Shown here: positions 12,067 to 26,941 of the stretch, piece after piece
How positions within the stretch are numbered: the first letter of the stretch is position 1
How the letters are laid out: each line of letters opens with the position of its first letter
From: Streptomyces milbemycinicus
GTDB lineage: Bacteria; Actinomycetota; Actinomycetes; Streptomycetales; Streptomycetaceae
DNA: 33,090 nt
Assembly (NCBI RefSeq): GCF_002154605.1
Contig: NZ_MUNE01000002.1
Location: forward strand, 1 to 33,090
Direction of reading: 5' to 3'
Notes under the pieces: generated by a model
What the model was told of the DNA's origin: nothing
What the model saw: only the letters and a program-made list of their open reading frames with translations
The model's database searches: none
Position numbers and translations under genes: made by a program

Positions 12067-12092
12067 GGCACGCGACACGCACGGCTTGAATG

Positions 12093-12118
12093 GCTGACAA
12101 AGATTGAAATCTGTCAGC
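12093..12118. promoter_or_regulatory. Inverted repeat upstream of the aldo/keto reductase
   Basis: GCTGACA (12093-12099) and TGTCAGC (12112-12118) are perfect arms 12 bases apart; the interior also holds AGATT/AATCT. Size and symmetry suit a TetR dimer, and a TetR gene is the second gene of the same operon, so this is its likely operator. Confidence 0.55.
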
Positions 12119-12171
12119 TGTGCATGTCATGCTTCCTGGGCGCACCCCACCCCCGTCCCGAGGAGCGTCCT

Positions 12172-13188: not shown

Positions 13189-13208
13189 CCGATGACGTAA
13201 GGGACCTG

Positions 13209-13796
13209 ATGCCGCCGCCCGAGAATCCCCTGACCCCCGCCCGCATCCTCGAAGCCACCGAGGACGTACTGCGCCGCTACGGCCCGGCCAAGGCCACGGT
13301 CGTGGACGTCGCCCGCGCGCTGGGGGTCAGCCACGGCAGCGTCTACCGCCACTTCGCCACGAAGGCCGCGCTGCGCGAGGCGGTCACCGAGCGGTGGCTC
13401 GACCGGGAGCACGACGAGCTGTCGGCCATCGCCGACGGCAAAGGCCCCGCGGAGGACCGCCTGCGGCGCTGGCTGGCGGCCCTCTTCGCGGCCAAGCGGC
13501 GCAAGGCCGGCGACGACCCGGAGCTGTTCGCCACCTTCATGGAGCTGGCCCGCGAGAACAGCGGCACCGTCGCCCGCTATCTCACGACGCTGCTGAAGCA
13601 GCTCGCCACGATCGTGGCGAGCGGGGTCGCGGACGGCGAGTTCGCCGCGCGCGACGCGGCGGCCACGGCGCGGGCGCTGTGGGACGCGACGGCGCGTTTC
13701 CACGACCCCATGTACGCGTCGGAGTGGCTGGCCCCGGAGATCGACGCGGACTTCGCGGAGGTGTGCGAACTGCTGCTGCGCGGCCTGCGGGCGTAA
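13209..13796 (+). CDS. TetR-family transcriptional regulator
   Basis: The product is 195 residues. The N-terminal helix-turn-helix covers about 10-55, with TVVDVARALGVSHGSVYRHF as recognition region, followed by KAALREAVTERWL, standard for TetR. The C-terminal ligand domain is all-helical with LFATFMELARENSG. A weak AAGGGA site precedes ATG 13209. It lies 20 bp after the aldo/keto reductase and likely autoregulates that operon through the inverted repeat at 12093-12118. A strong hairpin begins one base after its stop. Confidence 0.88.
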   Translation: MPPPENPLTPARILEATEDVLRRYGPAKATVVDVARALGVSHGSVYRHFATKAALREAVTERWLDREHDELSAIADGKGPAEDRLRRWLAALFAAKRRKAGDDPELFATFMELARENSGTVARYLTTLLKQLATIVASGVADGEFAARDAAATARALWDATARFHDPMYASEWLAPEIDADFAEVCELLLRGLRA

Positions 13797-13827
13797 GCGG
13801 CCTGCGCTCGTAAGGAGTGCAGGCCGC
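13797..13827. terminator. Bidirectional terminator-like hairpin
   Basis: GCGGCCTGC and GCAGGCCGC form a perfect 9-bp stem with a 13-base loop, directly after the TetR stop and 17 bp beyond the convergent thioesterase stop. It lacks a T-run, as is common in Streptomyces. Confidence 0.6.
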
Positions 13828-13844
13828 GTCGGCCGTGTCCGGGG

Positions 13845-14315
13845 TCAGCTCGTGGCGCCGCCCTTCGCGGCGAGCACGATCTGGGTCTGGGTGGTCTGTC
13901 CCACCAGCCGGTCCTTGTCGTCGCGCAGATCGGTCTGTACGACGATGAGGGTGCCGCCGACGTGCAGGGGGCGGGCCGCGGCGTGGACTCGTCCGGAGGC
14001 CACTCCCCGCAGGAAGTTGGTCTTGGACTCCACCGTGGATGTCCCGGCGCCCTTCGGGAGGTTGAGATAGGCGCAGACGGCGCCGACGGAGTCGGCCAGC
14101 GCCATCAGAGCCCCGCCGTGTATGACTCCACCCGCGGTGCAGACCTCCGGTGACCAGGCCAGACTGCCCACGGCCCGGTCGGGGGCGGCCTCGTGGAGTT
14201 CGATGCCCAGCTGTGCCGCGAAGGGCATGGCTGCCAGGGGGGCGGCGGGGTTGAGGGCTGCCGTCTCGGAAGTCTCAGAAGTCTCGGACGTCTCGGAAGT
14301 CTCGGAAGGGGCCAT
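13845..14315 (-). CDS. PaaI-type hotdog thioesterase
   Basis: The 156-residue protein has a hotdog fold: after a Ser-Glu-Thr-rich head, residues from about 27 read AMPFAAQLGIELHEAAPDRA. The active-site helix region then shows GGVIHGGALMALADSVGA, with the HGG signature and catalytic-type Asp, and STVESKTNFLRG later. These enzymes hydrolyse aryl- or acyl-CoA thioesters, often in phenylacetate or quinone pathways. The start at 14315 follows GAAAGGC by about 9 bases. The repetitive head is absent from typical PaaI proteins (about 130-140 residues). It is convergent with the TetR gene. Confidence 0.87.
   Translation of the reverse strand: MAPSETSETSETSETSETAALNPAAPLAAMPFAAQLGIELHEAAPDRAVGSLAWSPEVCTAGGVIHGGALMALADSVGAVCAYLNLPKGAGTSTVESKTNFLRGVASGRVHAAARPLHVGGTLIVVQTDLRDDKDRLVGQTTQTQIVLAAKGGATS
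14263..14307 (-). repeat. Five 9-base tandem units in the thioesterase N-terminus
   Basis: Five copies of GTCTCGGAA (plus strand; two with a single change) encode Ser-Glu-Thr repeats right after the start codon. They form a variable-number, frame-preserving array. Confidence 0.9.
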
Positions 14316-14458
14316 GGTGTGCTGCCTTTCGGGCTCGGGCGCGCGTTCTGTGGCGACCACACTGGCATGTTCCGGCGCCCTGGGGATGCGAGTCAGCGGC
14401 GATCTCGGTCAGCAGTTAGTGCCTGGTTCTGAACCCATCACGAGACCAGGAGGGATCC

Positions 14459-14677
14459 ATGATGAGCGAGATCACTGAGACCATCCCCGCCGGACGACGC
14501 TGCTGGTCGGTGAGCTGGCCGGAGTACACGCCCGCGGACGTCACGCCGCCTGAGCTGCGGCCGTCGGCGCCGGCCCACCACGTGCCCGGCTGGGCCGAGG
14601 CGGCGCCCACGCCGACCGACGTGCACGACTGGGATCACGGACACCCTCTCATCGGCCGGAACACGGCGAGCGCCTGA
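14459..14677 (+). pseudogene. Probable 5' remnant of a Nudix ADP-ribose hydrolase-like gene
   Basis: A perfect AGGAGG (14448-14453) precedes ATG 14459 and ATG 14462; the second is better spaced (a 71-residue product). The protein reads CWSVSWPEYTPADVTPPELR and later VPGWAEAAPTPTDVHDW. This resembles the N-terminal section of NUDT9/TRPM2-type ADP-ribose pyrophosphatases (W-V-W-x-Y-x-P-V-x-T, then WADP), which in intact proteins is followed by a NP-x-GRTG-x-x-GRG-x-LG-x-WG-PN-x-AADP block. That block and the Nudix box are absent; the frame ends with PLIGRNTASA. I infer a truncated gene, though a genuine small protein cannot be ruled out. The family call is from memory of the motif only. Confidence 0.4.
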
Positions 14678-14699
14678 CGACGCCGGTCCGGTACAGCGG

Positions 14700-15083
14700 T
14701 CAGCCTCCCGTCGGCGCGGGCTCCGGAGCCGGGACCGGAGCCAGGTAGAACCGTGACCGGGCGATCCGTCCGTCCCGGGCCCAAATGATGGCGGGCCCGC
14801 CCAGCACAACGGTCGCGCCGTCCGGTCCGGTACCCACATACTCAAACTCCGCCCAGAATTCCGGGCCCGCGGTGGCACGGCGCAGCACCTTCGCCCGTAT
14901 GTCGGGGAGGCGGCTGTAGATCGCCTTCCAGTTGGCGAGCACACGTTCGTTACCGGTGAAACCCTCCGCGGGTCGATGCGGCACCTCGGCTCGGTAGTCC
15001 GGGGTGAAGCAGTCCGCGACCCGCTGAGGGTCATGCGAGTTGATCGCGTCCATGAGGAGCTCGACCGGATCCTGTTCGTTCAT
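14700..15083 (-). CDS. NTF2/SnoaL-like protein, probably 5'-truncated lipoprotein
   Basis: From ATG 15083 (AAGGAG 9 bases upstream) the product is 127 residues of NTF2-like fold: helices at MNEQDPVELLMDAINSHDPQ, then CFTPDYRAEVPHRP, and strands through EFWAEFEYVGTG and GGPAIIWARDG. These folds serve as small-substrate cyclases, isomerases or binding proteins. The reading frame is open upstream to 15255 and encodes SRRDLISGLVAALAAPG, then VLASCG, a twin-arginine-like lipoprotein signal with the lipobox cysteine at 15153-15155. That signal has no start codon, because the IS end begins at 15241. The ancestral gene was probably an exported lipoprotein; today a cytosolic form could start at 15083. 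Confidence 0.7.
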   Translation of the reverse strand: MNEQDPVELLMDAINSHDPQRVADCFTPDYRAEVPHRPAEGFTGNERVLANWKAIYSRLPDIRAKVLRRATAGPEFWAEFEYVGTGPDGATVVLGGPAIIWARDGRIARSRFYLAPVPAPEPAPTGG

Positions 15084-15254
15084 CGTGCTTAACTCCTTGT
15101 CGTCCGTTGTCGAGTTCGGTCCCCTCGACGTCTTCCGGTCGTCGGGCACCCCACATGACGCGAGGACGCCTGGGGCAGCGAGGGCGGCTACGAGACCGGA
15201 GATCAGATCGCGGCGGCTGGGGCCCGTCGGAAGTGGGGACCTTAAGCTTGTTCT

Positions 15255-16754
15255 TTATGGTCTGAGTCGGTTTCGTTCGATGATGCTCTCGGGTCGTTTC
15301 ACGGTCTTGCCCACGTCGTAGCGGGTGGCGGGCCGCCGGTTCTTCGAACCAAGTGGCCTTCCAGAGCCGGGAGTTGAGGGTTTCGGTGCACGGGCCGGAC
15401 AGTGCAGGTGTGGGCGGAGGTTCCGAAACCCCCGGCGGACTCGGGCCGGGGTGAGCCGACCGGCCTCGGCGGGCTTCTCCCACGGCCGCCGCAAGTCGGC
15501 GGCGGCCTCGCGCAGAAGGCGGATCTGGGTGTGCGCGGCGATGATCAGCCAAGTCCAGCGCTCGCCGGCCTCGGGGGTGCGCAGCTTCGGACGGGTCCAC
15601 CCCAGGGTCTGTTTCATCAACCTGAAGAGATGCTCGATGTCGAACCTCCTAAGGAACGCCTGCCAGCGCACGTCGACGTCCTCGCTGTTCAGGCCGGTGG
15701 CGGACGACCAGAGCCAGAGCGGGAGCGGGTCGCCTCCGCCGGGCAGGCGGTCGACCTGAAGGCGGATCAGCGTGCCCTCGATGATGGGAAGTTCGCCGGT
15801 GTGGTCGATCCAGGCGGAGCGGGTGGTCAGGCGGGGGTGGATGCGGTCCCAAGCCATCGCGCGGGCGGTGCCGTACCGGTCGGTGACCTGCGTCGTGGCC
15901 GCGTCCGGCTCGCCCCAGGTGTCCGGCTTGGCGAAGCGGAGCTCCTTGCCGTGCTTCGGTGGTCGCCCGCCCCGGGGATAGGACAGGGCGTACTCCTTGA
16001 GCGAGGGCGTCGGCCGTCGCATGACGCGGTCGGAGCGCATCCGTCCCAGCACTTCGACCGGGAGGCCGCCCAGGAGGTGGGCCATGCGCGGGGCGTCGTA
16101 GCCGGCGTCGAAGACGATGAGGATGTCGCGGTCGCCGAAGTGCCAGCGGCCCATCTCGATCAGGTCCGTGACCACCCTGCGGAGCTGCGCGGCGGTGACC
16201 TCGGCGACGTCGTCCTCGGGGCCGAGACGGACGGCGTCCAGGAGCTGGCACCAGGACGTCCGGCCCGATTCGAGGGCGGCGACGAAGGAGTACGGCCAGC
16301 CGGGGATGAACTGGTCCGAGGACCGTCCGCTGCGACCGTAGACGTGGCAGAACAGGCGGTCCGCGCTGGTCGGTGCGTCGGGACGGAGCCAGTTGCTGAC
16401 GTCGACCGCCAGGACCAGGCGCCCGTCGGCGGCCCGCGGCATCGGCAGACCGGCCAGCACCTGCCGCAGCCGGGGCACGTCCACGTTCCCGCAGTTCAAC
16501 GCCTCGTACATCGCGCCGTGCCCGCGCCGATGCTCGGCCACCAGCGTGAGGTTCACCGGCGAGGTCACCGGACCGTCCGCGCACAACAACGCGTCCACGA
16601 GTTCGAACAGTTCGTCCCCCCGCGCGGTCAGACAGTCGAATAAGTCCTCCCGGAAGCGTGACGCTTGCGCGAACGCCTCCCCGGGACCGGCGTCAGGCAG
16701 CAGACTCACTCTCACGGCCTTCGTCTCGATCGGTGCACCTTGGTCGGAGCACAT
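15255..16754 (-). CDS. DDE transposase (IS4/IS701-like)
   Basis: The 499-residue transposase has an RNase H-type catalytic triad placed as Asp118 (VLAVDVSNW), Asp216 (ILIVFDAGYD) and Glu374 (FDIEHLFRLMKQTLGW). The Y-x2-R/E-x-K-like context near the last Glu (HLFRLMKQ) is typical of the IS4/IS701 superfamily. The C-terminus is a basic tail (GRPLGSKNRR). It appears full length with no stop or frameshift, so the element may be active. Its stop codon lies inside the presumed terminal repeat. Starts other than ATG 16754 are possible, since no strong ribosome site was seen. Confidence 0.9.
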   Translation of the reverse strand: MCSDQGAPIETKAVRVSLLPDAGPGEAFAQASRFREDLFDCLTARGDELFELVDALLCADGPVTSPVNLTLVAEHRRGHGAMYEALNCGNVDVPRLRQVLAGLPMPRAADGRLVLAVDVSNWLRPDAPTSADRLFCHVYGRSGRSSDQFIPGWPYSFVAALESGRTSWCQLLDAVRLGPEDDVAEVTAAQLRRVVTDLIEMGRWHFGDRDILIVFDAGYDAPRMAHLLGGLPVEVLGRMRSDRVMRRPTPSLKEYALSYPRGGRPPKHGKELRFAKPDTWGEPDAATTQVTDRYGTARAMAWDRIHPRLTTRSAWIDHTGELPIIEGTLIRLQVDRLPGGGDPLPLWLWSSATGLNSEDVDVRWQAFLRRFDIEHLFRLMKQTLGWTRPKLRTPEAGERWTWLIIAAHTQIRLLREAAADLRRPWEKPAEAGRLTPARVRRGFRNLRPHLHCPARAPKPSTPGSGRPLGSKNRRPATRYDVGKTVKRPESIIERNRLRP

Positions 16755-16854
16755 GATCAGACGAAGGCCGCTTCAATGTCCGGCGAATGCCCAGGTGAGT
16801 GATCCAGTTCGAGATGTCGTTCGACGCCGGGAGCCAGGCACGGGCACTGATGCC

Positions 16855-17637
16855 TCAGCCGGCGAGCAGGGCCTGCATCCACTGGTCTTCGCGTTGCTCG
16901 ACGTATTCGGCGTCGTTTCGCCAGGCGTCGCCGTGGCCTTCAGCCCACAGCCTTGCCCAGGGCTGGGCTCCTTGGGCTGCCTGGTCGCGCAGGAAGTCGT
17001 GCATGGAACGCGTACGGCGCCCCAGCAGAGGGACCAACCGACGACGTTCGGACTCGGCGAGACCGTAGGCGTCGGCGAAGACTCGCAGTCGGTCCGCCGC
17101 GTCCGGGCTCTGCCAGTCCGGATGCGCGGACAGCGGGATGAACCCGTGAATGGCGTATGCGACATCCCACAGGCGCGAGCCGGGACCTGCAGCGTCCCAG
17201 TCGATGAAGGCCCACCGTGCCTCGTCTGCGACCACGAGGTTCCAAGGGGCCAGGTCGTTATGGGCGATGATGTCACTGCCCTCAGCGGGGATCAGCGTCT
17301 GCCACTGCGCATCGGACGGCGGCGTGAAGTCATGCACAGCGTCGTGGAAGTCCCGGATCAGCCGTGCAACGCGAGCCAGTTGTCGAGCGGGTTCCATCAG
17401 CGAGAACCGATCGGGCCAGACCACATCTCCCGGCATGAAGGACAGGACCTCACGCCCCTGATCGTCAATGCCGAGTGGGCGAGGCGCCGCGCCAAATCCC
17501 ACCTCGTGCAGGTGGGCAAGCAGGGCATGCACAGCGGGAGTCCATGGTCCGGCCGGACGGCGAACGGTGTCCCCGACGCGAACGACACCATCACTGACGT
17601 TGCCGCCGGACAAAGGCTGTTCATCATCGTGCCGCAT
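16855..17637 (-). CDS. APH-family phosphotransferase
   Basis: The 260-residue protein has a protein-kinase-like fold of the aminoglycoside phosphotransferase/choline kinase group. The catalytic loop is HNDLAPWN at 126-133 (Asp128 base, Asn133), and the magnesium site is FIDWDAA at 144-150. The nucleotide end is abbreviated (GGNVSDGVVRVGDTVRR), as in many small APH relatives. Members phosphorylate hydroxyls of antibiotics, sugars or amino alcohols; resistance is possible but unproven. It follows the same strand as the transposase and lies inside the candidate terminal repeats, 100 bp upstream of the transposase start. The start at 17637 lacks a clear ribosome site. Confidence 0.85.
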   Translation of the reverse strand: MRHDDEQPLSGGNVSDGVVRVGDTVRRPAGPWTPAVHALLAHLHEVGFGAAPRPLGIDDQGREVLSFMPGDVVWPDRFSLMEPARQLARVARLIRDFHDAVHDFTPPSDAQWQTLIPAEGSDIIAHNDLAPWNLVVADEARWAFIDWDAAGPGSRLWDVAYAIHGFIPLSAHPDWQSPDAADRLRVFADAYGLAESERRRLVPLLGRRTRSMHDFLRDQAAQGAQPWARLWAEGHGDAWRNDAEYVEQREDQWMQALLAG

Positions 17638-17893
17638 CGAACCAGTGTGTCGGATCAGCTCGTCATGATCACCCCATTAAGGGGGAGCGTCAGAGTAGGG
17701 ACGGAGGTTAAAGAACAAGTTAAGAGCCTGTTTTCGATCCCCGGACTACGATCGCCTTGGGGTGCGTCCACTCGCGTCGGTAGTCATTGCCTACTCGGCA
17801 GGCCGAGGAAGCCGGACGGCCTTGGGTGGCGGTGGTGACCGCCACCGCCGGATTGATCAGTCCCATTGCGCTTCGTGAGATGGCGGCTGCCCG

Positions 17894-18255
17894 CTCCTGC
17901 GGGAGCTTCGGCGGGTGATTCGCCTGGTCATGAGCGTGATTGCGGCCGGCGCCAGATGAACCGGCAGCTTACCGTCCAGGAGTCACGGCACAAGCTCGCC
18001 CGCGACATCTGCCACGGCAAGCGCGGGCAGATCATGCAGGCATACAGGACGGGGCAGGAGGACCAACTCGGCGCGCTCGGCCTGGTCCTCAATGCCGCCG
18101 TGCTCTGGACAACGCGCTACCTCGACGCCGCCGTCGGCCACCTGCGGGCCCTGCCTCCCGAGGAGCGGGAGCATGACGTCCTGGACGACGACGTGGCCCG
18201 GGTCTCCCCGCTGAAGCGCGCCAACCTCAACTGCCTGGGCCGCTACAGCTTCGCC
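17894..18255 (+). pseudogene. Frameshifted C-terminal remnant of a Tn3-family transposase
   Basis: From 17956 the translation reads NRQLTVQESRHKLARDICHG, then KRGQIMQAYRTGQEDQLGAL, and ends LKRANLNCLGRYSFA at 18255. That is the conserved C-terminal block of Tn3-type TnpA, which includes the terminal part of the catalytic domain. The preceding block LLRELRRVIRLVMSVIAAG (17894-17950) lies in a different frame, which stops at 17957-17959, so a single indel separates them. Everything N-terminal (about 850 residues) and the DDE aspartates are missing, and translation past RYSFA is unrelated. No 38-bp Tn3 end was recognised downstream. Between 17725 and 17893 nothing else was recognised. Confidence 0.85.
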
Positions 18256-18391
18256 GCCCGGGTGCCCGTCTGGGTACGGGGCCCGGCGATCTGCGGCTGC
18301 GCCGTGTGGGCGCGAGTGACCAAGAGCGATGCCGCAGGCAGGCAGCGGCGGGGCCCGAGGGCCCCGGCTGCGTGCCCGCCGGGACGGTGTG

Positions 18392-18970
18392 TCAGACCAA
18401 GGCGAGCCGGTCCACGAGCAGCTCCACCCTCTGCGCGGCGTCCTCCGGCAGCAGCCGTCCCGCCCGGGTCAGGGTCGCAATGCCGTGCAGGGATGCCCAG
18501 AACACCTCGGTGAACAGCCCCGGGTGGACGCCGTCCCCGGCGACCTCGGCGAGGCACTCGAGCAGGGCGGCGAAGGCGTCCTTCAGCGGCTCGGGGGTGT
18601 CCTCCTGCGCGTACGCCAGGCCGCCGTCGAGCTGGAACAAGGCGTCGTAGACCGCGGGGTTGTGCTCGGCGAAGTCGAGGTAGGCGCGGGCCAGGGCGGT
18701 GACCCGGGCGCGCGGGTCGTCCTCGGCGGAGGTCGCGGCCCGCACCGCCGCGGCCATCTCGGTGGCGCCCTCCAGGGCGACGGCGCCGATGATCTCGCGC
18801 TTGCCGCGGAAGTGGCTGTAGAGGACGGGCTGACTGTATTCGATGCGCTCGGCGAGGCGGCGGGTGGTGACCGCGTCCCAGCCCCGCTGCTCGGCGAGTT
18901 CGCGGGCCGTCGCCAAGATGAGACGTTCGCGCTCCGCCCGTTCGCGCTGCTTGCGTTCCTGTACCGACAT
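18392..18970 (-). CDS. TetR-family regulator with WHG-type C-terminus
   Basis: The product is 192 residues. The N-terminal helix-turn-helix spans about 15-60, with VTTRRLAERIEYSQPVLYSHF as core (landmarks RRLAERIEYS and QPVLYSHF), and KREIIGAVALEG after it. The C-terminal domain carries FWASLHGIATL, the W-x-H-G pattern of the TetR WHG group. A weak AGGA lies 8 bases before ATG 18970. It diverges from the DUF1772-type membrane gene across an 89-bp gap rich in CTAG elements, so it most likely represses that gene. Confidence 0.88.
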   Translation of the reverse strand: MSVQERKQRERAERERLILATARELAEQRGWDAVTTRRLAERIEYSQPVLYSHFRGKREIIGAVALEGATEMAAAVRAATSAEDDPRARVTALARAYLDFAEHNPAVYDALFQLDGGLAYAQEDTPEPLKDAFAALLECLAEVAGDGVHPGLFTEVFWASLHGIATLTRAGRLLPEDAAQRVELLVDRLALV

Positions 18971-19012
18971 GATTCGATCCTATCACCGCTAGACAATCGA
19001 GCGGCAGTAGTA

Positions 19013-19043
19013 CTAGCGTTGCCTCATCACCTAGCAACACTAG
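19013..19043. promoter_or_regulatory. Candidate TetR operator
   Basis: CTAGCGTTGC (19013-19022) and GCAACACTAG (19034-19043) are inverted arms with one mismatch and an 11-base spacer. A further CGCTAG half-site lies at 18987-18992. CTAG is rare in Streptomyces DNA, so its repetition in this short divergent promoter region suggests a binding site. Confidence 0.55.
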
Positions 19044-19059
19044 ATGCCAGGGGGGCATC

Positions 19060-19506
19060 ATGCTCAACGCACTCGAGGTCGTCACCACCGTGATCGTCGG
19101 CGTGATGGTGGGGGTGGAGTTCTCCGTCGCCTTCATCATGAACCGGATCCTGGACGCGCTTCCCGAGGACAGCGGCCAGCTCGGCCACGCCCACGGCGGC
19201 CGGATGCTCGGCGCCCTGATGCCGTTCTGGTACATAGGCTCGCTCGTCCTCAGCGCGATCTGGGCTGTCGCCGGATGGCACCACCACGGCGCCGGACTCG
19301 TCGTCACCGCCGCCGGCCTGCTGATCGTCAGCGTGGTCATGTCGATGCTGCTGCTCGTCCCGATCAACAACCGAAACAAGACCTGGACCCCCGACAACCG
19401 GCCCGCCGACTGGAAGCAGCAGCTGCACCGCTGGGAACGCTTCCACTACGTCCGCGTCGCCGTCATCATCGCCGCCTTCGCCCTGCTGGTCGCCGCCCTC
19501 ACCTGA
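19060..19506 (+). CDS. DUF1772 (anthrone oxygenase-like) membrane protein
   Basis: The 148-residue protein has four hydrophobic segments: about 5-25, 50-70, 78-100 and 128-147. The family pattern includes EFSVAFIMNRILDALP in the first helix and loop, PFWYIGSLVLSAIW in the second, and VPINNRNKTW before the last helix, with the HRWERFHYVRV stretch typical of DUF1772. Some members act on polyketide anthrones; most are uncharacterised. An AGGGGGG site lies about 5 bases before the ATG. It is controlled, probably, by the divergent TetR. Confidence 0.85.
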   Translation: MLNALEVVTTVIVGVMVGVEFSVAFIMNRILDALPEDSGQLGHAHGGRMLGALMPFWYIGSLVLSAIWAVAGWHHHGAGLVVTAAGLLIVSVVMSMLLLVPINNRNKTWTPDNRPADWKQQLHRWERFHYVRVAVIIAAFALLVAALT

Positions 19507-19831
19507 TACCGAAGCCGCCCCGGCATGCACTGATTCGCCCCGTTATGTCAACGGCTTTCGCCCCGTCGGGGTGAGCCCGACAGGGCTTCGGATTGCTGAC
19601 CCCGCGGGCCGACGCCGCGCCGGTGGCGCACAATCCCCATTCCCCGGGCGGCAGCTGGCCACCGAAATCCCGACATCCGGGAATGCAGCTGCCGCTCAGA
19701 TCCCACAACGGTGATCCCGACAAACTACGCCCCTCGATCAGCCGCGTCCGCGCGGCCTGATCAGGCCCCACACGACTCAGCAAGCTCCACGAAGCTCACC
19801 AAGCCGACGAAGACTCGCAAGGAGAAGAACA
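19507..19831. other. 325-bp gap without a gene; one hairpin
   Basis: No coding pattern was seen. At 19560-19586, GCCCCGTCGGG and CCCGACAGGGC form an 11-bp stem with one mismatch and a 5-base loop, 54 bp past the DUF1772 stop. It is a weak terminator candidate for that gene. The remainder would hold the promoter of the next gene, not identified. Confidence 0.5.
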
Positions 19832-20257
19832 ATGCCGCTGAAGAAGATCAACACCGTCCTGGCCGCCGCCTTCATCCTCTTCATCCTCTGGTTCGGGACG
19901 GAATTCATCCTGAGCCCGGAGACGACGGCCCCGGGCTTCGGCCTGCCGAGCTGGCCGTCCGGCGACGGCGGCGGCTTCCTGATCATCAAGGGAATCCGCG
20001 ACGTCGTCTTGGCCCTGGTCCTGGGCATCCTGCTGGTGACGGGCCACCGCCGGGCGCTGGGCTGGGTGCTGCTGGTGGAGGCCCTCGCCGCGTACGGCGA
20101 CATGGCCACCGTGCTGGCCCATCACGGCTCCGTGGCCACCGCGCTCGGCGTCCACTGCCTGACCGCGACACTGATGGTGGTCAACGGCCTGCTGATAATG
20201 CGCGAGACCCGCAAGGTCGCGGCCGCTCCGGCAACGCCCGCCCTGCAGCCCGCCTAA
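19832..20257 (+). CDS. Small four-helix membrane protein (DUF4267-like)
   Basis: The 141-residue product has four predicted membrane helices: about 6-24, 48-68, 74-95 and 100-122. The segment GFLIIKGIRDVVLALVLGIL and the following GHRRALGWVLLVEALAAYGD recall the DUF4267 group of small membrane proteins, whose function is unknown. A good AAGGAG lies 8 bases before the ATG. It is on the same strand as the DUF1772-type gene but 325 bp away, so probably separately transcribed. Confidence 0.75.
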   Translation: MPLKKINTVLAAAFILFILWFGTEFILSPETTAPGFGLPSWPSGDGGGFLIIKGIRDVVLALVLGILLVTGHRRALGWVLLVEALAAYGDMATVLAHHGSVATALGVHCLTATLMVVNGLLIMRETRKVAAAPATPALQPA

Positions 20258-20288
20258 CGCCACCTTGGCGCGTGTCGGTATTCGCCTG

Positions 20289-20372
20289 TCAGCGCCTGCC
20301 GGGAAAGGCGAGGCGCACGATCTTCTTCCAGTGGGCGGCGGCCTGGTCCCGTTTCTCCGGGATGGCGCAGCG
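20289..20372 (-). pseudogene. Possible IS5-type transposase fragment
   Basis: A 27-codon stretch reads RCAIPEKRDQAAAHWKK and continues to a stop at 20289. AIPEKRDQ-AA resembles the TIPEKADQAAxRKKRG element of IS5-group DDE transposases, but the following GGRPP part is absent. It could be a degraded scrap or chance. The rest of 20258-20532 shows no recognised gene. Confidence 0.3.
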
Positions 20373-20532
20373 CGGCCCCCTGCCCCGATTCTCATAAACA
20401 GTCCTTTGCCCGAGCAAGATCCAAGACGGCGGCCCGGCGATCGCGAAGCACCGGTTCGGTTCGCAGAACTCGTTCTCACTCAAAGACGGGTTCGGGGTAC
20501 TTCTGAGAATCGTTTGTGACAACAACGGGGGC

Positions 20533-21627
20533 ATGGCGGTCCCTCAAGAAGCCTCGCCGAGCGACGCGGACGAGGTCGAGCGCCAGCCCTGCCCGCGCTG
20601 CCGGGCCGAACCCGGCTCGCCGTGCCGCTCGCGCTCCGGCGCGGTCGCCGGCACCTACCACACCGGCCGCTTCACGAAGGTGCCCCGACTCGCCAAGCTC
20701 CTGCGCGTGCCCACCCCCGCCGACCGCGGGCCGGGCCAGCCGTGGCGCCCTGGCACTTCGGTCCCGCTCGCCCTGGCGCCGGACACCTCGAACGCAGACA
20801 TCCGCATCGGGTACGCAAGGTGCTCGACGCTCACCCAGGAACTCCAGTCGCAGCTCGACGCCTTGGCCAAGCACGGCATCCCGCGCGACAAAGTGTTCTC
20901 CGAGAAGATCAGCACCCGGGTTCGCGTCCGGCCCCAGTTCGAGGCCGCGCTCGCGCTCGCCCGCCAGATCAAGGCCCACGCCCCGCACTGCCGGGTCATC
21001 TTCACCGTGTACGAGATGAAGCGCCTGGGCCGCGACGCCGCCGAACTCACCGCGCTCGCCGACCACCTCACTGCCCACGGCCTGGTCTTGGAGATGCTCG
21101 CCGGGCCCCTGCCAGGGATGTACGACCCCCGCGGGCCGGGCCGACTGCTGTTTGCGTTCTTCGCGGCGATGGCGGAGACCGAGCGGGAGAACATCCGGGA
21201 GTCGACCCTCGAAGGACTCGACGCGGCGGCTCGCAAGGGCAAGCACGGCGGCCGGCCACCCGTCATCACCGACGACATGCTGCACACCGTGCTGCGGCGC
21301 CGCGCGAACGGCGAGTCAGTCGAGCAGATCCAGCCCGACCTGATCATCCCCACCGGCAAGCGCAAGGGCCAGGCCCCCAGCGTCGCGAGCATCTACCGCG
21401 CACTCGCCGAACACGAGAAGAAGGAGGCGTACCCCGAAGCCGTCGCAGCGGCCCGCGCCGACTTCGCCGACCTTCAGGACGTCGACGACATCCCCCGCCC
21501 CCGCCGAGTCCGCATCCGGCGGCCAGACGATCCGCTCACCCCGGAGGAAGTCGACCTCCGCCAGCGCCTCCAGGACCAGGTCCTCCAGCCCACACGGACT
21601 GAGGAGCCAGCAAGATCAATCGCTTAG
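20533..21627 (+). CDS. Zinc-finger serine recombinase (resolvase/invertase type)
   Basis: The 364-residue protein has three visible parts. An N-terminal zinc-ribbon-like motif shows Cys20, Cys23, Cys31 and His43 (CPRCRAEPGSPC then TYHTGR). A serine-recombinase catalytic domain starts at about residue 90, with nucleophile Ser98 in IGYARCSTLTQE, MKRLGRDAAELT near 165 and FAFFAAMAETERENIRE near 215, matching the E-helix pattern of small resolvases. A C-terminal region carries GKHGGRPPVI and a helix-turn-helix-like VASIYRALAEHEKK. It lacks the long C-terminus of phage integrases, so resolution or inversion is likelier than integration. A GGGGGC precedes the ATG. An unusual AT-rich inverted repeat lies downstream. 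Confidence 0.88.
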   Translation: MAVPQEASPSDADEVERQPCPRCRAEPGSPCRSRSGAVAGTYHTGRFTKVPRLAKLLRVPTPADRGPGQPWRPGTSVPLALAPDTSNADIRIGYARCSTLTQELQSQLDALAKHGIPRDKVFSEKISTRVRVRPQFEAALALARQIKAHAPHCRVIFTVYEMKRLGRDAAELTALADHLTAHGLVLEMLAGPLPGMYDPRGPGRLLFAFFAAMAETERENIRESTLEGLDAAARKGKHGGRPPVITDDMLHTVLRRRANGESVEQIQPDLIIPTGKRKGQAPSVASIYRALAEHEKKEAYPEAVAAARADFADLQDVDDIPRPRRVRIRRPDDPLTPEEVDLRQRLQDQVLQPTRTEEPARSIA

Positions 21628-21652
21628 CGCCAACCGCTGTTCCCCGGGGCCG

Positions 21653-21700
21653 CCCTCTCAAAAAAATGCTTGCTCTGCATCAAGTATTTCTTTGAGAGGG
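21653..21700. repeat. AT-rich 20-bp inverted repeat after the recombinase
   Basis: Arms 21653-21672 and 21681-21700 pair at 18 of 20 positions around an 8-base loop. The outer 10 bp (CCCTCTCAAA and TTTGAGAGGG) are perfect. It starts 26 bp after the recombinase stop. A recombinase target site, an IS end or a terminator are all possible. The AT content is far above that of the surroundings. Confidence 0.7.
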
Positions 21701-21800
21701 GGTGGGGGGAGGCCTGAACCGGACCGGCATCTACCGCTTCGGGTGACCGTCCGCCGTCCGCCACGTTCTCGGTAACTGGACCATGCCGATGCTAACGGCC

Positions 21801-22382
21801 CTAGGAGTGCGGGGCGGTGCGATCTTGGCGGCGGAAATCGATCATGTAGAAGACCTTGTCGTAACGGCGTTCGCCGACGGCGACGAAGTCGGGCAGGCGG
21901 CCGTATTCGCTGAAGCCCAGCGACCGGTAGAGGTCCAGGGCCTTGGTGTTGTCGCCACGGGCGTCCAGGGTGAGGACTTCGATACCCGCCCGCCGGGCGT
22001 CGGTGATCAAGGCAGCGGTCAGCGCCCGGCCGATGCCACGCCCATGGGCGGCTCCATCCACCGCGATCTTCTCCAGATCGGCATGCGGCCGATGGGTCGG
22101 TCGGGCGTAGCGCAGCCAGTACCCCAGACCGACCAGCCGACGGTCGAGGTAGGCGGCGCGCAGGGCGCCATCCCCGGCCCGCACCGTGGCGACGACCTGG
22201 CCGAGGAGTTCCGCCACCTCTGGGCGTGGGGGCGGTTCGACCCAGCCGAGCGCGGCACCCCCGCGGACCAGATCCGCCAGGATCCGGTGGGCCGACTCCG
22301 CGAACCGGGCTGCCAGGTCCGGATCGGACATCAGCTCCATCGCACTCAGGATGACCGGCTCAGCGGTCCCGCTGCTGGTCAC
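21801..22382 (-). CDS. GNAT-family N-acetyltransferase
   Basis: The 193-residue protein has an acetyl-CoA binding core with KIAVDGAAHGRGIGRALTAAL (landmark HGRGIGRAL), the V-x2-x2-x-G-x-G pyrophosphate loop, followed by LTLDARGDNTKALDLYRSLGF, where an Asn and Tyr typical of GNAT motif B are present. It transfers an acetyl group to an amine; the substrate is unknown. The start is the GTG that overlaps the TGA of the upstream Lrp gene (GTGA), which gives translational coupling and fixes this start. Confidence 0.88.
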   Translation of the reverse strand: MTSSGTAEPVILSAMELMSDPDLAARFAESAHRILADLVRGGAALGWVEPPPRPEVAELLGQVVATVRAGDGALRAAYLDRRLVGLGYWLRYARPTHRPHADLEKIAVDGAAHGRGIGRALTAALITDARRAGIEVLTLDARGDNTKALDLYRSLGFSEYGRLPDFVAVGERRYDKVFYMIDFRRQDRTAPHS

Positions 22383-22825
22383 GGCCGGTTGGGTCCGCGA
22401 TAGGGCAGTGTTTGGCTGTAGACGACGCTCGTGGTCGTGCTGCCGAAGCCGGCCAGCTCGTCCACGAGTGTCTCCAGATGCTCCATGGAGGTCGCGGCCA
22501 CCTTCAGGGTGTAGCAGTCGTCGCCGGTGGTGCGCAGGCACTCCAGGATCTCCCGCCGCTCGGCGAGCAGCCGGCGCAACGGCTGGTGGTGGTTACCCGG
22601 GTACTTCAGCCGGACGACGGCGAGCACGGGATAACCGACCTTGGCCAGGTCCACCACCGCGTGGTAACCGGTGATGACCCCCAGCGACTCCAGATTCCGC
22701 ACCCGTTCCGTAGTGGCCGACGAGCTGAGATTCACGCGCCGCCCCAGCTCACTGAGGGAGATACGAGCCTCCCGTTGCAGCTGCTCGATGATCGCCCAGT
22801 CGACTTCATCAAGGTTCACGGCCAT
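22379..22825 (-). CDS. Lrp/AsnC-family transcriptional regulator
   Basis: The 148-residue protein has an N-terminal helix-turn-helix (LDEVDWAIIEQLQREARISL, then SELGRRVNLSSSATTERV) and a C-terminal RAM domain (about 65-140, PVLAVVRLKYPG and DDCYTLKVAATS) that normally binds amino acids and assembles octamers. No Shine-Dalgarno is seen; TAGAAT (22837-22832) sits 6 bases before ATG, suggesting a leaderless mRNA. It is co-transcribed with the GNAT gene via a 4-bp overlap and divergent from the LLM gene, which it may also control. Confidence 0.9.
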   Translation of the reverse strand: MAVNLDEVDWAIIEQLQREARISLSELGRRVNLSSSATTERVRNLESLGVITGYHAVVDLAKVGYPVLAVVRLKYPGNHHQPLRRLLAERREILECLRTTGDDCYTLKVAATSMEHLETLVDELAGFGSTTTSVVYSQTLPYRGPNRP

Positions 22826-22918
22826 TCCGCGATTCTACCGGGAAAACCACGGGAGACTCCCGCTGCTGCCAGGAAGTTTCGGTTCCGTGCTCCATGATCG
22901 CGGGGATAGCCTCGGGCT
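22826..22918. promoter_or_regulatory. Divergent leaderless promoter region
   Basis: On the minus strand, TAGAAT is 6 bases before the Lrp ATG. On the plus strand, TAGCCT (22907-22912) is 6 bases before the LLM ATG. Neither gene has a ribosome site. No clear -35 box was found for either. Confidence 0.45.
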
Positions 22919-23737
22919 ATGCGACTTGGCGTCAACGTACCGAACTTCGGGCCGGGGACCGATCCCGGCGTGCTGCGCGAGTGGGCGCGAATCGTGGAGG
23001 GGCTCGGCTTCGACCTTCTCATGGTGTCGGACCACGTGGCCGTGACCCCGGACGTGGCCGTGCGGTACCCGGAGCCGTTCTATGAGCCGTTCACCACGCT
23101 GTCCTGGCTGGCCGGGATCACCACCGGGCTGCGGCTGGGCACGACCGTGCTCGTGCTGCCCTACCGGCACCCGTTGCTGGTGGCGCGCATGGCCACCGGC
23201 CTCAACCGGCTCAGCGGCGGCCGGTTCGTCCTCGGGGTGGGGGTCGGCTGGGCACGTCAGGAGTTCGACGCGCTCGGCGTGCCGTTCACCGCGCGCGGCA
23301 GGCTGACCGACGAGTACCTGGGCACGTTGCGGGACGCCTGGTGCGCGGAGGCCGAGTCCAGCACCGGAGCGGTACCCGTCTGGGTCGGGGGCCACAGCGA
23401 GGCGGCGCTCCGGCGCGCCGTCAGGTTCGGCGACGCCTGGCACCCGCTGCGCCTCCCACTTACCCGGATGCGCTCGGTCCTGGCCGACCACGCGATGCCG
23501 GGGTTCGCCCCCCGCATCGCCCTGCGGCTGACCACCACTGTGGTCGACGACCCCGAACGGCCGGTCGGCGTGGGCACCATCGAGCAGATCCTCGACGATC
23601 TCGACGAACTCCGCTCGCTCGGCGCCGACACCGTCGTGTTCGACCCCTACCACGGAGATCCGGAGGAGACCCGTCGGCCCGACGCGGCCTGGCGGGCGCT
23701 CACCGCCGTGGCCACACACTGGAGGACAGCATCGTGA
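22919..23737 (+). CDS. LLM-class (F420-dependent type) oxidoreductase
   Basis: The 272-residue protein is a luciferase-like TIM barrel. It shows MRLGVNVPNFGPGTDPG at the start, FDLLMVSDHVA in strand 2, LGTTVLVLPYRHPLLVARM, and then LSGGRFVLGVGVGWARQEFDALG, the signature block of the family. Small actinobacterial members of this size mostly use coenzyme F420, but FMN cannot be excluded. Its stop overlaps the GTG of the deaminase gene, so both are made together. No ribosome site; probably leaderless. Confidence 0.88.
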   Translation: MRLGVNVPNFGPGTDPGVLREWARIVEGLGFDLLMVSDHVAVTPDVAVRYPEPFYEPFTTLSWLAGITTGLRLGTTVLVLPYRHPLLVARMATGLNRLSGGRFVLGVGVGWARQEFDALGVPFTARGRLTDEYLGTLRDAWCAEAESSTGAVPVWVGGHSEAALRRAVRFGDAWHPLRLPLTRMRSVLADHAMPGFAPRIALRLTTTVVDDPERPVGVGTIEQILDDLDELRSLGADTVVFDPYHGDPEETRRPDAAWRALTAVATHWRTAS

Positions 23738-24165
23738 GCACCACCGCCGACGAAACTCTCCTGCGACGCGCCATCGGCATCGCGGCCCGCGCCGTCACCC
23801 TGGGCGACGCCCCGTACGGCTCCCTGCTCGCCGGCCCGGACGGCACGATCCTCGCCGAGGCCCACAACACAGTGCGGCGCGACAACGACATCACGGCCCA
23901 CCCGGAACTGAAGCTCGCCCGCTGGGCGGCCCGGGAACTCGACCCGGACACGGCCGCACGCACCACCCTGTACACCAGTTGCCAGCCGTGCGGCATGTGC
24001 GGCGGCGGCATCGTCCGCTCCGGCGTCGGCCGGGTCGTCTACGCGCTCTCCACCGAGCAGCTTGTCGAGCTCAACCCGCAGTCGGGCGACTGGCCCACGG
24101 TGACGCAGGACGGCCCGGCCCTGTTCGACGAGGCACGCACCCCCATCGACGCCTACTACCGGTAA
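23734..24165 (+). CDS. Zinc-dependent nucleoside/base deaminase
   Basis: The 143-residue cytidine-deaminase-fold enzyme has a catalytic motif AHPELKLA (His56, Glu58, with Pro in the middle in place of the common Ala) and a zinc motif SCQPCGMCGGG (Cys86, Cys89). The length and HPE variant suit cytosine or guanine deaminase-like proteins rather than tRNA TadA. It starts at GTG 23734, overlapping the LLM stop by 4 bases, with GGAGG about 10 bases upstream. Pairing with an oxidoreductase suggests turnover of a modified base or heterocycle; that is inference. Confidence 0.88.
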   Translation: MSTTADETLLRRAIGIAARAVTLGDAPYGSLLAGPDGTILAEAHNTVRRDNDITAHPELKLARWAARELDPDTAARTTLYTSCQPCGMCGGGIVRSGVGRVVYALSTEQLVELNPQSGDWPTVTQDGPALFDEARTPIDAYYR

Positions 24166-24166
24166 G

Positions 24167-24319
24167 TCACCCGTGTGCGCCGAGCCCGCCCCGGGCTGCG
24201 ATGCGGTCGCGGATGCGCGCGGCCATGTCGGAGGCTTCCTCGGGCTCCATGGCCAGCACGCCGTTCTCGGTCATCAGCGACGCGAACTGCTGCTGCTCGT
24301 ACGGGACGTCCGGCGGCAT
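24167..24319 (-). CDS. Small acidic protein downstream of the ATPase gene
   Basis: A 50-residue reading frame starts at ATG 24319, 11 bp after the ATPase stop, and ends one base beyond the convergent deaminase stop. The sequence (MPPDVPYEQQQFASLM, then LAMEPEEASDMAARIRDRIA) looks helical and acidic. Codon positions are GC3-rich like real genes here. Its function is unknown. It is probably co-expressed with the upstream ATPase, though the ribosome site is weak. Confidence 0.55.
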   Translation of the reverse strand: MPPDVPYEQQQFASLMTENGVLAMEPEEASDMAARIRDRIAARGGLGAHG

Positions 24320-24330
24320 CCGTGGTCCGA

Positions 24331-24783
24331 TCAGAGTTCGACCGGGGAGGTTGCCAGGTCGAGTTCGACCCAGACTTCCTTGCCCACGGTCCGCTCCCGT
24401 ACGCCCCAGCGGGTCGCCAGCGCGCGCACGATGAGGAGCCCGCGCCCGAACTTGTCGTCGGGGGTGGGGCGGCGCGGCTGGGGGAGGCGTTCACCCTTGG
24501 CGTCGGATACGGCGATGCGCAGGAGGGTTTTGGTGAGGGTGAGCTGAACGCGGAAGTGACGCCCAGGGACGCCGCCGTGCAGCACGGCGTTGCTGGCCAG
24601 CTCGGAGACGATGAGCGCGGCGTCGTCAGCGAGGGCGGGGTGGCCCCAGTGAGCAACCAGTCTGGCGGTGTAGCGGCGGGCGAAGGTCACGCTTTTGGGA
24701 AACGGGGAGTAGTCGACGCGGTCGTGATGGACGACGGGGTCGTTGGGGTCTGGAATCCGTGGGTCTTGCGGCGCGAATGCCAT
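24331..24783 (-). CDS. HATPase_c (anti-sigma-like) ATP-binding protein
   Basis: The 150-residue protein has a GHKL fold. The N box reads ALIVSELASNAVLHGG (about 57-72) and the G-box region reads DDKFGRGLLIVRALATRWGV (about 108-127). Such short ATPases resemble anti-sigma kinases (SpoIIAB/RsbW) but lack a recognisable partner here. In Streptomyces they are often found beside XRE/DUF5753 and DUF397 genes, in the abaA/whiJ-like developmental loci, as here. The start is ATG 24783 with GGAGG 6 bases upstream. It diverges from the XRE gene across about 200 bp. Confidence 0.88.
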   Translation of the reverse strand: MAFAPQDPRIPDPNDPVVHHDRVDYSPFPKSVTFARRYTARLVAHWGHPALADDAALIVSELASNAVLHGGVPGRHFRVQLTLTKTLLRIAVSDAKGERLPQPRRPTPDDKFGRGLLIVRALATRWGVRERTVGKEVWVELDLATSPVEL

Positions 24784-24980
24784 CACGCACCTCCAGCAGG
24801 CGGCGGGAATTGGCCCGAGCGCGCGAGGGCATGGCGGGTCGCGGCCCGCCGACTCGCCTCGCTGCGCGAGCGGTTCATCACGGACCGTAGCGTCGTCTGC
24901 GAGATCAACACAAGTTCCTCTTGGAGGAAATCCTCCGATCTGGTTTGCGAGGGTGTATCCGCTGACGCCAGACTGGGCAC

Positions 24981-25862
24981 GTGACTACGAGTCAGCTGAT
25001 GCAGGGGAACAGCACATCAACCGTTCTGGGGCGCAGACTCGGCGGTGAGCTCATCAAGCTCCGTACCGAGGCGGGGCTTACGCAGGGGCACGCCGCCAAA
25101 GCCCTCACGGCATCCACCACCAAGGTCGCCAAGATGGAGCGCGGCTGGGTCCCCATGCGCGACCCGGACATCCGGGCCTTGTGCGAGCTCTACGGCGTGA
25201 GCGATCCTGCGGTTGTGGGCGGGCTGCTGGAGCTGGCGCGGGTCGACCGCGAGCGCCGCAGGGCCAAGGGGTGGTGGGACGACTTCCCGAACCTCGGAGT
25301 AATGCAGGAGTACGTCGCCCTGGAGAACGTGGCGACAAGCATCAGGACGTGGCAGCTCAGCCTTGTGCCCGGTCTGCTGCAGACCCCTGATTACGCCCGC
25401 GCATTGGCCCTCGGCAACTCGATGCGCGGCCACCCGGACGAGGGCGAACAGTTCGTTGCCGCCAGAGTGGCCCGTCAGCGGCGGCTCACCGAAGAACCTG
25501 TGCTGGCACTACGGGCGCTGATCCATGAAGGTGCGCTCCGGCAACATGTCGGCGGGCCGGAGGTCATGCGCTCGCAGTTGGTGCATCTCTGCCACGTCAC
25601 GGATCGGTCCCACATCACGGTTCAGGTGCTGCCGTTCACGGCCGGGGCGCACTTGGGCATGAACGGAGCCTTCAACATCATTTCGTTCGCTGAGCCCGGT
25701 GCCATGGACGTGGTGTATACAGAAACCGCCTTCGGCCAGTTGTGGGTTGAGGGAGGCGACGAAGCCGCCCAGCACCAGGATCTCTTTGAGGAGATCTCCC
25801 GAAGCGCCCTCACTGAGTCGGAGAGCAAGACATTCATCAACGTTCTCCGTGAAGAGGTGTGA
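24981..25862 (+). CDS. XRE-family regulator with DUF5753 domain (WhiJ-like)
   Basis: The 293-residue protein has an XRE helix-turn-helix at about 18-70 (LGGELIKLRTEAGLTQGHAA, then STTKVAKMERG) and a C-terminal DUF5753 domain from about 110 (RTWQLSLVPGLLQTPDYARA onward, with HEGALRQHVGG and IISFAEPGAMDVVYTE). This matches WhiJ/Scr1-type regulators that act with a small DUF397 partner and influence development or antibiotic production. The start is GTG 24981; CAGACT 6 bases upstream may be the -10 of a leaderless mRNA. The DUF397 gene follows 3 bp after its stop. Confidence 0.9.
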   Translation: MTTSQLMQGNSTSTVLGRRLGGELIKLRTEAGLTQGHAAKALTASTTKVAKMERGWVPMRDPDIRALCELYGVSDPAVVGGLLELARVDRERRRAKGWWDDFPNLGVMQEYVALENVATSIRTWQLSLVPGLLQTPDYARALALGNSMRGHPDEGEQFVAARVARQRRLTEEPVLALRALIHEGALRQHVGGPEVMRSQLVHLCHVTDRSHITVQVLPFTAGAHLGMNGAFNIISFAEPGAMDVVYTETAFGQLWVEGGDEAAQHQDLFEEISRSALTESESKTFINVLREEV

Positions 25863-25865
25863 GAG

Positions 25866-26066
25866 ATGAGCACGCTTGAGTTCCGCAAGTCGAGCTACAG
25901 CAACGGTGACCACGAATGCGTCGAGGTGGCCACCAACCACCCCGACACCGTCGCGATACGCGACTCCAAGCACCCCGAGGGCCCCATACTGCGCGTGGCG
26001 CCCGCCGCCTGGACCGCCTTCCGGGAGGCCGTCGTTCAGACCTCGTCGCGCATCAACCGCAGGTAG
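25866..26066 (+). CDS. DUF397 protein with altered C-terminus
   Basis: The 66-residue partner of the XRE gene has a DUF397 core that is clear: FRKSSYSNGDHECVEVA, then VAIRDSKHPEGPILRVAP and AWTAFREAV (to residue 56, position 26033). The final ten residues (VQTSSRINRR) are read from DNA that is also the reverse complement of the malF 3' end, so the original tail and stop seem lost at the junction. Genes 25866-26066 and 26036-26941 therefore overlap tail to tail by 31 bp. Function in the family: a small acidic cofactor or antagonist of the XRE protein. Confidence 0.87.
   Translation: MSTLEFRKSSYSNGDHECVEVATNHPDTVAIRDSKHPEGPILRVAPAAWTAFREAVVQTSSRINRR
26036..26051. repeat. Right 16-bp direct repeat of the putative insert
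   Basis: TCAGACCTCGTCGCGC contains the malF stop codon complement and matches 7294-7309 at 14 of 16 positions, same orientation. DUF397 similarity ends just before it. Confidence 0.45.
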
Positions 26067-26941
26067 ACCAGCGAGAACACCGCACCCACCAGCAGCAACA
26101 GCAGCGCGACCGCCGTGCCGTAGCCGATCAGGGACTTGTTGAACGCCTGGTCGTACATGAAGACCGGCAGGGTCTGGCTGCGGTTGCCGGGGCCGCCTCG
26201 GGTCATGGCCCAGATGAGGCCGAAGACGGACAGCGTCTGGAGCGTGTTGAGCATCAGGTTCGTGCCGATGGAGCGGCGGATCATCGGCAGGGTGATGTGC
26301 CAGAAGCGGCGCGGCCCACTCGCGCCGTCGACCTCCGCGGCCTCGTTGATCTCCTTGGGGATTTCGGAGAGCGCGGCGGAGTAGACGAGCATGGAGAAGG
26401 CCGTGCCGCGCCAGACGTTGGCGAAGGAGACGGCGAGGATGGGGAGGGTGTAGAGCCAGTTCTGGGACGGCAGGTGGAGCCAGTCCAGGATGGCGTTGAG
26501 CGTGCCCTCGCGGCGGAAGAAGGCGTACAGCAGAAAGCCCGCGACGATCTCGGGTACGACCCACGCCGCGATGACGATCGAGCCGGTGATGGTCCGTACG
26601 GGCTTGGAGGCGCGCTGCATGGCGGTGGCGAGGGCCAGCCCCAGGGTGTTCTGGCCGATCAGCGAGGACAGCAGGGTGAAGACGAGGGTGAGGATGACCG
26701 CGTTGCGGAAGTTGTCGTCCTCGAAGGCGCGTTGGAAGTTGTCGAGGCCGACGAAGTCCGTGGTGGCGGCGCCGGTGAGCTGCATATTGGTGAAGGCGAT
26801 GTAGACGCAGTAGCCGATCGGCCCGCCGAGGAAGAGCAGCAGGAGCACCGTCGCCGGGGCGAGGGGGAGCCAGCGCAGGGGGCGGCGTCTCGGGCGGGCC
26901 GGGGCCGCCGGAGCCGCCGCCACCTTGGTCGCGGTCGCCAT
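26036..26941 (-). CDS. Carbohydrate ABC transporter permease, MalF type
   Basis: The 301-residue membrane protein has six helices, beginning at about 26 (PLAPATVLLLLFLGGPIGYC). The EAA loop is NEAAEVDGASGPRRFWHITLP. It should pair with a MalG-type permease and the lipoprotein encoded just upstream. Its ATG overlaps the binding-protein TGA by one base (TGATG), so the two are coupled. The gene that should follow, malG, is missing here and present at 6353-7291. The ATPase is not encoded nearby, as is usual in Streptomyces, where MsiK serves several importers. Confidence 0.92.
   Translation of the reverse strand: MATATKVAAAPAAPARPRRRPLRWLPLAPATVLLLLFLGGPIGYCVYIAFTNMQLTGAATTDFVGLDNFQRAFEDDNFRNAVILTLVFTLLSSLIGQNTLGLALATAMQRASKPVRTITGSIVIAAWVVPEIVAGFLLYAFFRREGTLNAILDWLHLPSQNWLYTLPILAVSFANVWRGTAFSMLVYSAALSEIPKEINEAAEVDGASGPRRFWHITLPMIRRSIGTNLMLNTLQTLSVFGLIWAMTRGGPGNRSQTLPVFMYDQAFNKSLIGYGTAVALLLLLVGAVFSLVYLRLMRDEV

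Follow-up and report, generated by a model that had tools for sequence, protein, structure and literature searches.

A DUF397 gene that ends in antisense malF at a probable rearrangement join within a split sugar-transporter operon of Streptomyces

Background

In a 33,090-nucleotide stretch of Streptomyces milbemycinicus DNA (contig NZ_MUNE01000002.1, positions 1 to 33,090; hereafter the window), a small gene of the DUF397 (BldB) family runs at its 3' end into the opposite strand of a gene for a malF-like sugar ABC permease. What does this junction record? A sequence-only reading of the window had taken it for the edge of a genomic island, fixed to the base by the fusion and coinciding with a direct repeat. 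Comparison with other Streptomyces indicates that the join is real and ordinary in kind. It most likely marks a past gene rearrangement, in a region whose DNA content differs greatly between related species. The features discussed are collected in Table 1. The names malE, malF and malG are used by analogy and imply no substrate, since both permeases show only the BPD_transp_1 domain in Pfam.

Table 1. Features of the window that bear on the DUF397/malF join
Feature	Position	Strand	Basis and remarks
malG-like permease	6353..7291	-	BPD_transp_1; probable TTG start at 7291, from the Shine-Dalgarno (SD) sequence and alignment with relatives
Clade-wide conserved malG leader and start region; other end of shared DNA	7268..7373	-	blastn, alignment
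malG-side repeat copy, GCGCGAGGAGGTCCGA	7294..7309	-	Probably the malG Shine-Dalgarno region
DNA apparently private to the window at this locus, about 17 kb	7374..24328	.	blastn against relatives' stretches
AbaA-like HATPase_c_2 protein, third member of the triad	24331..24786	-	Pfam
XRE/WhiJ-like regulator, partner of DUF397	24981..25862	+	PF13560 (HTH_31) and PF19054 (DUF5753)
DUF397 (BldB-family) gene	25866..26066	+	66 aa; ORF call; PF04149
Triad/malF DNA join	26033..26041	.	blastn limits against relatives; ambiguous over a possible 3-4 nt of shared CAG/CAGA (26037-26040)
DUF397/malF tail-to-tail overlap, 31 bp	26036..26066	.	ORF coordinates
malF-end repeat copy, GCGCGACGAGGTCTGA (malF R-D-E-V-stop)	26036..26051	-	Sequence
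malF-like sugar ABC permease, intact	26036..26941	-	301 aa, ends RLMRDEV; Pfam BPD_transp_1

Results and discussion

The DUF397 gene ends on the antisense strand of malF

The DUF397 and malF open reading frames (ORFs) lie on opposite strands and overlap at their 3' ends, and the ORF coordinates confirm the extent of overlap given in the sequence-only reading. The match to PF04149 spans residues 5-56 of the DUF397 protein and positions 2-54 of the 55-position profile (E = 8.7e-21; 74.3 bits, above the gathering score of 24). These limits agree with the earlier placement of the end of the conserved core at residue 56 (26033). The C-terminal residues of the ORF are VVQTSSRINRR. Antisense malF provides codons 58-66 (QTSSRINRR), the TAG stop codon and, silently, the third base of codon 57. 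That the tail and its stop codon are antisense malF can be read directly from the sequence, as had been claimed; the ten residues counted earlier become nine whole codons and one silent base. A simple scan found no terminator between DUF397 and malF.

The reading frame of malF is open to its usual end. Three residues from this end the window has D and most near relatives have E, and all 27 malF examined finish in E-V. The closest other malF among 392 genomes of the genus is 92% identical, and the 29 best matches from other genomes of the genus range from 79% to 92%.

Two kinds of DNA meet at the malF stop codon

Where one homology stops and the other begins was located by blastn comparisons with relatives that carry the DUF397 gene together with its adjacent WhiJ-like XRE and AbaA-like HATPase genes (the triad). 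In nine of the 11 such relatives, homology to the triad ends at 26020, 26022, 26022, 26023, 26025, 26032, 26033, 26033 and 26040. Homology to malF starts at 26034 in three relatives and at 26036 in seven. The outgroup exceptions are G008, where it starts at 26051, and G058, which lacks the triad and where the start at 26028 probably reflects 8 nt of chance extension. These limits support a meeting of DNA of two origins at about 26033-26041, flush with the malF stop codon. The right junction proposed earlier near 26034-26036 is a real join with sound coordinates, but it does not provide an independent fix of an island edge.

The exact point of joining may be blurred by a short shared sequence. 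The DUF397 proteins of G150 and of one G055 copy (copy 3) end in V/A-Q-N-A-M, and those of G165 and G372 have T-Q-E-P; all four genes share with the window a CAG codon at residue 58. Because CAG occurs at this residue in four relatives, the CAG of the window may be native and the join may lie within the shared CAG/CAGA.

Variable tails in DUF397 homologs

A fall in conservation at residue 56-57 had been proposed as a test of the fusion. We gathered 59 distinct DUF397 ORFs, 57 of which contain the RDSK motif and were aligned on it. F52 is conserved in 56 of the 57, and at residues 53-58 the numbers that match the window are 17, 1, 24, 11, 7 and 5. The proposed drop is not diagnostic, because DUF397 tails vary after F52 in homologs with ordinary ends too, and it was rejected as proof. 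It is the switch in DNA homology, not residue conservation, that shows the fusion. Homologs sharing the VQTSSRINRR tail, the case named in advance as speaking against a fusion, were sought and none was found: TSSR, SRI[NS]R and QTSS are absent from the tails of all 57 homologs and from the two unaligned ORFs.

The C-terminus of the DUF397 protein is indeed antisense malF, as the claim of an altered C-terminus held, but with 14 residues after F52 it falls within natural variation (6-27 residues in the 57 homologs). With an intact core, and with tails that differ so freely in nature, the protein is most simply expected to work and its tail to be neutral, or probably nearly so; malF itself is intact.

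An old split between malF and malG

In the genus at large, malG is found within the 1.5-kb flank in 19 of 30 malF loci. Across the whole clade to which the window belongs, the two genes are 4-30 kb apart, and contiguous malF-malG was seen only in more distant lineages. The distance from the malF stop to the malG-side copy of the repeat discussed below is about 18.7 kb in the window, 14.9 kb in G055, 9.3 kb in G069, 16.8 kb in G165, 21.5 kb in G096, 29.7 kb in G180, 12.2 kb in G384, 15.6 kb in G372, 17.5 kb in G357 and 6.3 kb in G360. The malF-malG distance is about 4.3 kb in G058 and 6.5 kb in G008, which together with G360 have the split operon without the triad. Of 23 genomes, the survey downstream of malF covers all but G300, G304 and G337; G198, whose malF lies 71 bp from a contig end, was left unclassified, and G060 (locus L029) has no malG within 1.5 kb. 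The malG of the window is 93% identical to those of G055 and G069.

The triad is found near malF in the same orientation, with DUF397 toward malF, in the window and in 11 relatives. In every one of these relatives kilobases separate the DUF397 stop from the malF stop: 2.2 kb in S. sabulosicollis, 2.4 in G069, 2.9 in G384, 4.6 in G055, 4.7 in G372, 5.6 in both G357 and NBRC 110028, 7.3 in G150, 8.2 in G165, 8.6 in G180 and 12.2 in G096. In eight of the 11, malG lies beyond the triad on the same contig. For the other three the comparison is limited to the malF side: malG of G150 sits on a different contig, and the stretches of S. sabulosicollis and NBRC 110028 stop short of malG. The XRE regulator of the window is 77-80% identical to its counterparts in G055, G069, G384 and G372. 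By its distribution, the triad appears to be an old resident beside malF.

The direct repeat with which the junction had been said to coincide is not peculiar to an island in the window. One copy of the 16-bp repeat GCGCGAGGAGGTC[C/T]GA forms the end of malF (R-E-E-V-stop); the other lies just before the probable TTG start of malG. Copies within two mismatches are present at both ends in the window and in eight of the nine triad relatives checked (G055, G069, G165, G150, G180, G384, G372 and G357), around mostly different DNA. In G096, the exception, and in G360, which has no triad, the malG-side copy is perfect and the malF end is more diverged. In contiguous relatives, one stretch is common to the malF end and the malG start. 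Because both copies are found in relatives whatever lies between them, the repeat is no evidence for an island edge in the window. It records the old split of the operon, not the arrival of the window's 18.7 kb.

At the malG end, DNA shared with relatives extends beyond the repeat by about 40-65 bp, reaching 7349 in most comparisons and 7373 with G069, so private DNA does not begin at the repeat there. The blastn match over 7268-7349 is 84-88% identical in G055, G384, G165, G096 and G360; that of G069 (85%) extends to 7373, and that of G180, weaker at 76%, to 7378. The leader at 7294-7350 on the minus strand reads GGTTTCATG(T/G)ACG..ACGCTGATCGACTGCGCTC, followed by the Shine-Dalgarno sequence, and is clearly conserved in seven of the ten split-operon relatives aligned. 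It is perhaps a promoter or operator that malG needed once it was cut off from malF.

The interior of the interval

What the window shares with its relatives between malF and malG amounts to the triad and about 80-105 bp ahead of malG; the intervening 17 kb is private at this locus. When the window from 7.3 to 26.0 kb was compared by blastn to the relatives' stretches, nothing was found beyond the triad and the malG leader except similarity to an FAD-enzyme gene, over 138-175 bp at 68-71% in three relatives. A search confined to the 6 kb at 18300-24320 returned matches with E <= 1e-100 in 124 of 199 genomes of the genus. They come as separate pieces of up to about 2.1 kb, which gives this part the look of a patchwork. 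A further segment, found beside malF in NBRC 110028 and G180 and present in several others too, is matched in the window's genome in part only, at 67% over about 490 bp, 74% over 160 bp and 91% over 32 bp.

Some interior elements have relatives elsewhere. A serine recombinase (Resolvase) is encoded at 20533-21627, and DNA related to it is present at many other loci of the genus, with no link to this site. The surrounding region (20387-21643) has matches of about 78-90% at many such loci and is probably mobile in its own right. Close copies of a block of about 1.2 kb at 18300-19507 (a TetR-like gene and its neighbor, judged by eye) occur in many of the matched genomes, and a second copy, 90% identical, is present in this genome (contig C692). 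At 15165-16929, a DDE_5 transposase ORF is flanked by 28-nt arms with 75% complementarity, which finish in a perfect 9-bp pair. Only imperfect inverted pairs were found around this ORF, and that the arms are the ends of an insertion sequence is a weak possibility. A 116-bp repeated element at segment borders was considered as an attachment site and dropped, as its reverse strand appears by eye to be the signal-peptide-like start of two related genes.

The defining signs of an island were looked for at this site. Near relatives do not show an empty site lacking the DNA in question, as they possess the triad end and the malG leader, and a flanking direct repeat specific to the insertion is lacking, as the repeat is found at both ends in most triad relatives. 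A single clean island inserted at the 16-bp repeat was rejected on these grounds. What survives of the description as an island edge fixed to the base is the flush join, probably private to the window; the split of malF from malG throughout the clade, the old triad and the shared DNA past the repeat speak against the rest.

Copies of the malF end in other genomes

Copies of parts of malF were observed in the intervals of relatives at 7783-8091 of locus L073, 10120-10192 of L071, 13144-13185 of L069 and 6160-6190 of L070. Three of the four end at the malF stop codon, and the copy in L070 is weak. Copies of the 3' end that finish exactly at the last base of malF are 307 bp long in G096 (E = 3e-143), 34 bp in G055 (1e-8) and possibly 36 bp in G069 (0.004); a 73-bp copy in G165 (9e-30) is not of the 3' end. 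The comparison set comprised malF and malE (five loci each), malG (four), chitinase (two), and RR and pfk (one each), run against 15 intervals, of which those of G150, G357, S. sabulosicollis and NBRC 110028 were covered in part. No control gene (malE, malG, chitinase, RR or pfk) gave a match below 1e-4 (best 3e-4) in these intervals. By E-value the G069 copy is no better than the control genes, and it rests on its position at the last base of malF. Three more malF matches (two in G180, one in G372; 3e-4 to 0.004) are short, lie away from the 3' end and were set aside as chance. A position-weight scan for malF ends found, beyond the genuine ends, only G055 and G096; it missed the G069 copy, which has a one-base shift, and its null of 20 shuffles of one locus gave no score of 5. 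In G069, an ORF that looks by eye like histidyl-tRNA synthetase (L070 4060-5424) directly adjoins malF, with the possible copy beyond it.

These copies suggest insertion of DNA next to malF in other lineages, in which case the flush state could be the older one. They also bring to mind a broader notion, which we regard as rather doubtful, that the malF 3' end is a recurrent platform for recombination, where segments enter or leave at the stop codon, keep malF whole and sometimes leave copies behind. If this were true, the DUF397-malF fusion would be one product of a repeated, site-focused process and not a one-off accident.

Origin of the join

The explanation that we favor, and hold to be reasonably probable, is a rearrangement private to the window's lineage that set the 3' end of DUF397 against the malF stop. 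The malF-malG junction would have been split long ago in a Streptomyces clade that includes S. iranensis and S. sabulosicollis, and each end would have kept a copy of the last codons of malF, which double as the ribosome-binding region of malG. The interval between them could then have become a place of DNA gain and loss, with the AbaA-WhiJ-BldB-like triad as an old resident on its malF side. Recombination in the window's lineage would have placed the DUF397 3' end against the malF stop codon, perhaps at the 3-4 nt of shared sequence (CAG/CAGA). With the native DUF397 stop removed, translation would read through nine codons of antisense malF before meeting an in-frame TAG. Both the privacy of the join and its short-homology mechanism are what we infer from these comparisons. 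Speaking against them, the shared CAG depends on a residue present in five of the 57 homologs and is only 3-4 nt long, and the flush triad could be ancestral, with the insertions beside malF in other lineages coming later.

This last arrangement, in which the flush join is the original edge of a triad insertion at the malF 3' end and other lineages gained DNA afterward, is unlikely but deserves the most weight among the alternatives. A tree of malE/malF/malG and neighbors that used more genes, with missing data, than an earlier one in which the window was weakly placed makes the window sister to all other triad carriers plus G360 (bootstrap 88 for DNA and 97 for protein). This agrees with an original edge, as do the malF 3'-end copies in G096, G055 and possibly G069 that stop at the last base of malF. 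Given this sister relationship, tree position alone therefore does not decide the age of the join. A private join is modestly favored because an ancestral fusion might leave antisense-malF tails in its descendants, and none of the 57 homologs has one. In G069, moreover, about 280 bp and another small ORF (seen by eye) separate the possible malF copy from the DUF397 stop, and on the malG side the limit of shared DNA is not at the repeat.

Far less weight falls on explanations that dispense with a join of this kind. That the DUF397 stop was lost by point mutation beside an already adjacent malF is highly unlikely. Stop-codon loss is a known route to gene overlaps (PMC2174442), and the adjacency itself would then be older, but DUF397 homology stops only a few bases short of the malF stop, or in one comparison runs beyond it, so that hardly any intergenic DNA is left, and kilobases lie between the two genes in all 11 relatives. 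An artificial union of unrelated pieces at 26033-26041 by the assembler is, by a shade, the most improbable reading of all. The draft is highly fragmented (1,328 contigs), but the triad and malF have the same order and orientation, kilobases apart, in those 11 relatives. A 1,961-bp stretch spanning the join is matched in full at one place in this genome, its 21 other matches being to short parts at 68-81%, and the join leaves two clean ORFs.

Implications

A lineage-private rearrangement of this sort would be a tidy example of a small protein gaining a new C-terminus at no visible cost to its neighbor. It also carries a warning. A sharp fusion boundary with a flanking repeat can mimic an island edge, and here relatives reveal a repeat that is part of the host operon and, within the flanked DNA, genes that are old residents. 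With contents both old and new across a dozen species, the split malF-malG interval may offer a natural series for following how a broken operon becomes a hotspot. Our literature searches brought up no description of the fusion or of this hotspot.

Comparison with known systems

Genomic islands and insertion hotspots at gene 3' ends resemble this locus in having variable DNA beside an intact 3' end, here that of malF, and some relatives hold partial malF copies. The locus differs in that no integrase is tied to the site, no repeat is specific to an island and no tRNA gene is present in the window.

Convergent overlaps are ordinary, with 58 counted in E. coli, and loss of a stop codon is among the routes described for gene overlaps (PMC2174442). 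Like genes altered in that way, DUF397 reads the antisense strand of its neighbor to the next stop. The cause here, in contrast, appears to be a rearrangement join instead of a point mutation.

Judged by Pfam, the triad has the same three gene types (HATPase, XRE-DUF5753 and DUF397) as the abaA-whiJ-bldB paralog loci of Streptomyces. The DUF397 protein of the window has the CVEVA and VAIRDSKxP motifs, and KSSYSN where KSSYSG is given in PMC10294661. It ends in antisense malF, unlike members of those loci that end at their own stop. According to the same source, most DUF397 proteins consist of the domain alone.

The XRE-DUF397 pairs of S. coelicolor (Scr1/Scr2 and others) likewise have an XRE gene followed by one for a small DUF397 protein, of 63-91 aa as listed in PMC10364602, a range that takes in the length found here. 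Such pairs have been linked to development and antibiotic production, and 14 DUF397 proteins are described as showing no clear toxicity when overexpressed (PMC10364602, PMC10294661). The likeness is drawn from the genes alone, and the pair in the window differs from these in its setting, within a split sugar-transporter operon.
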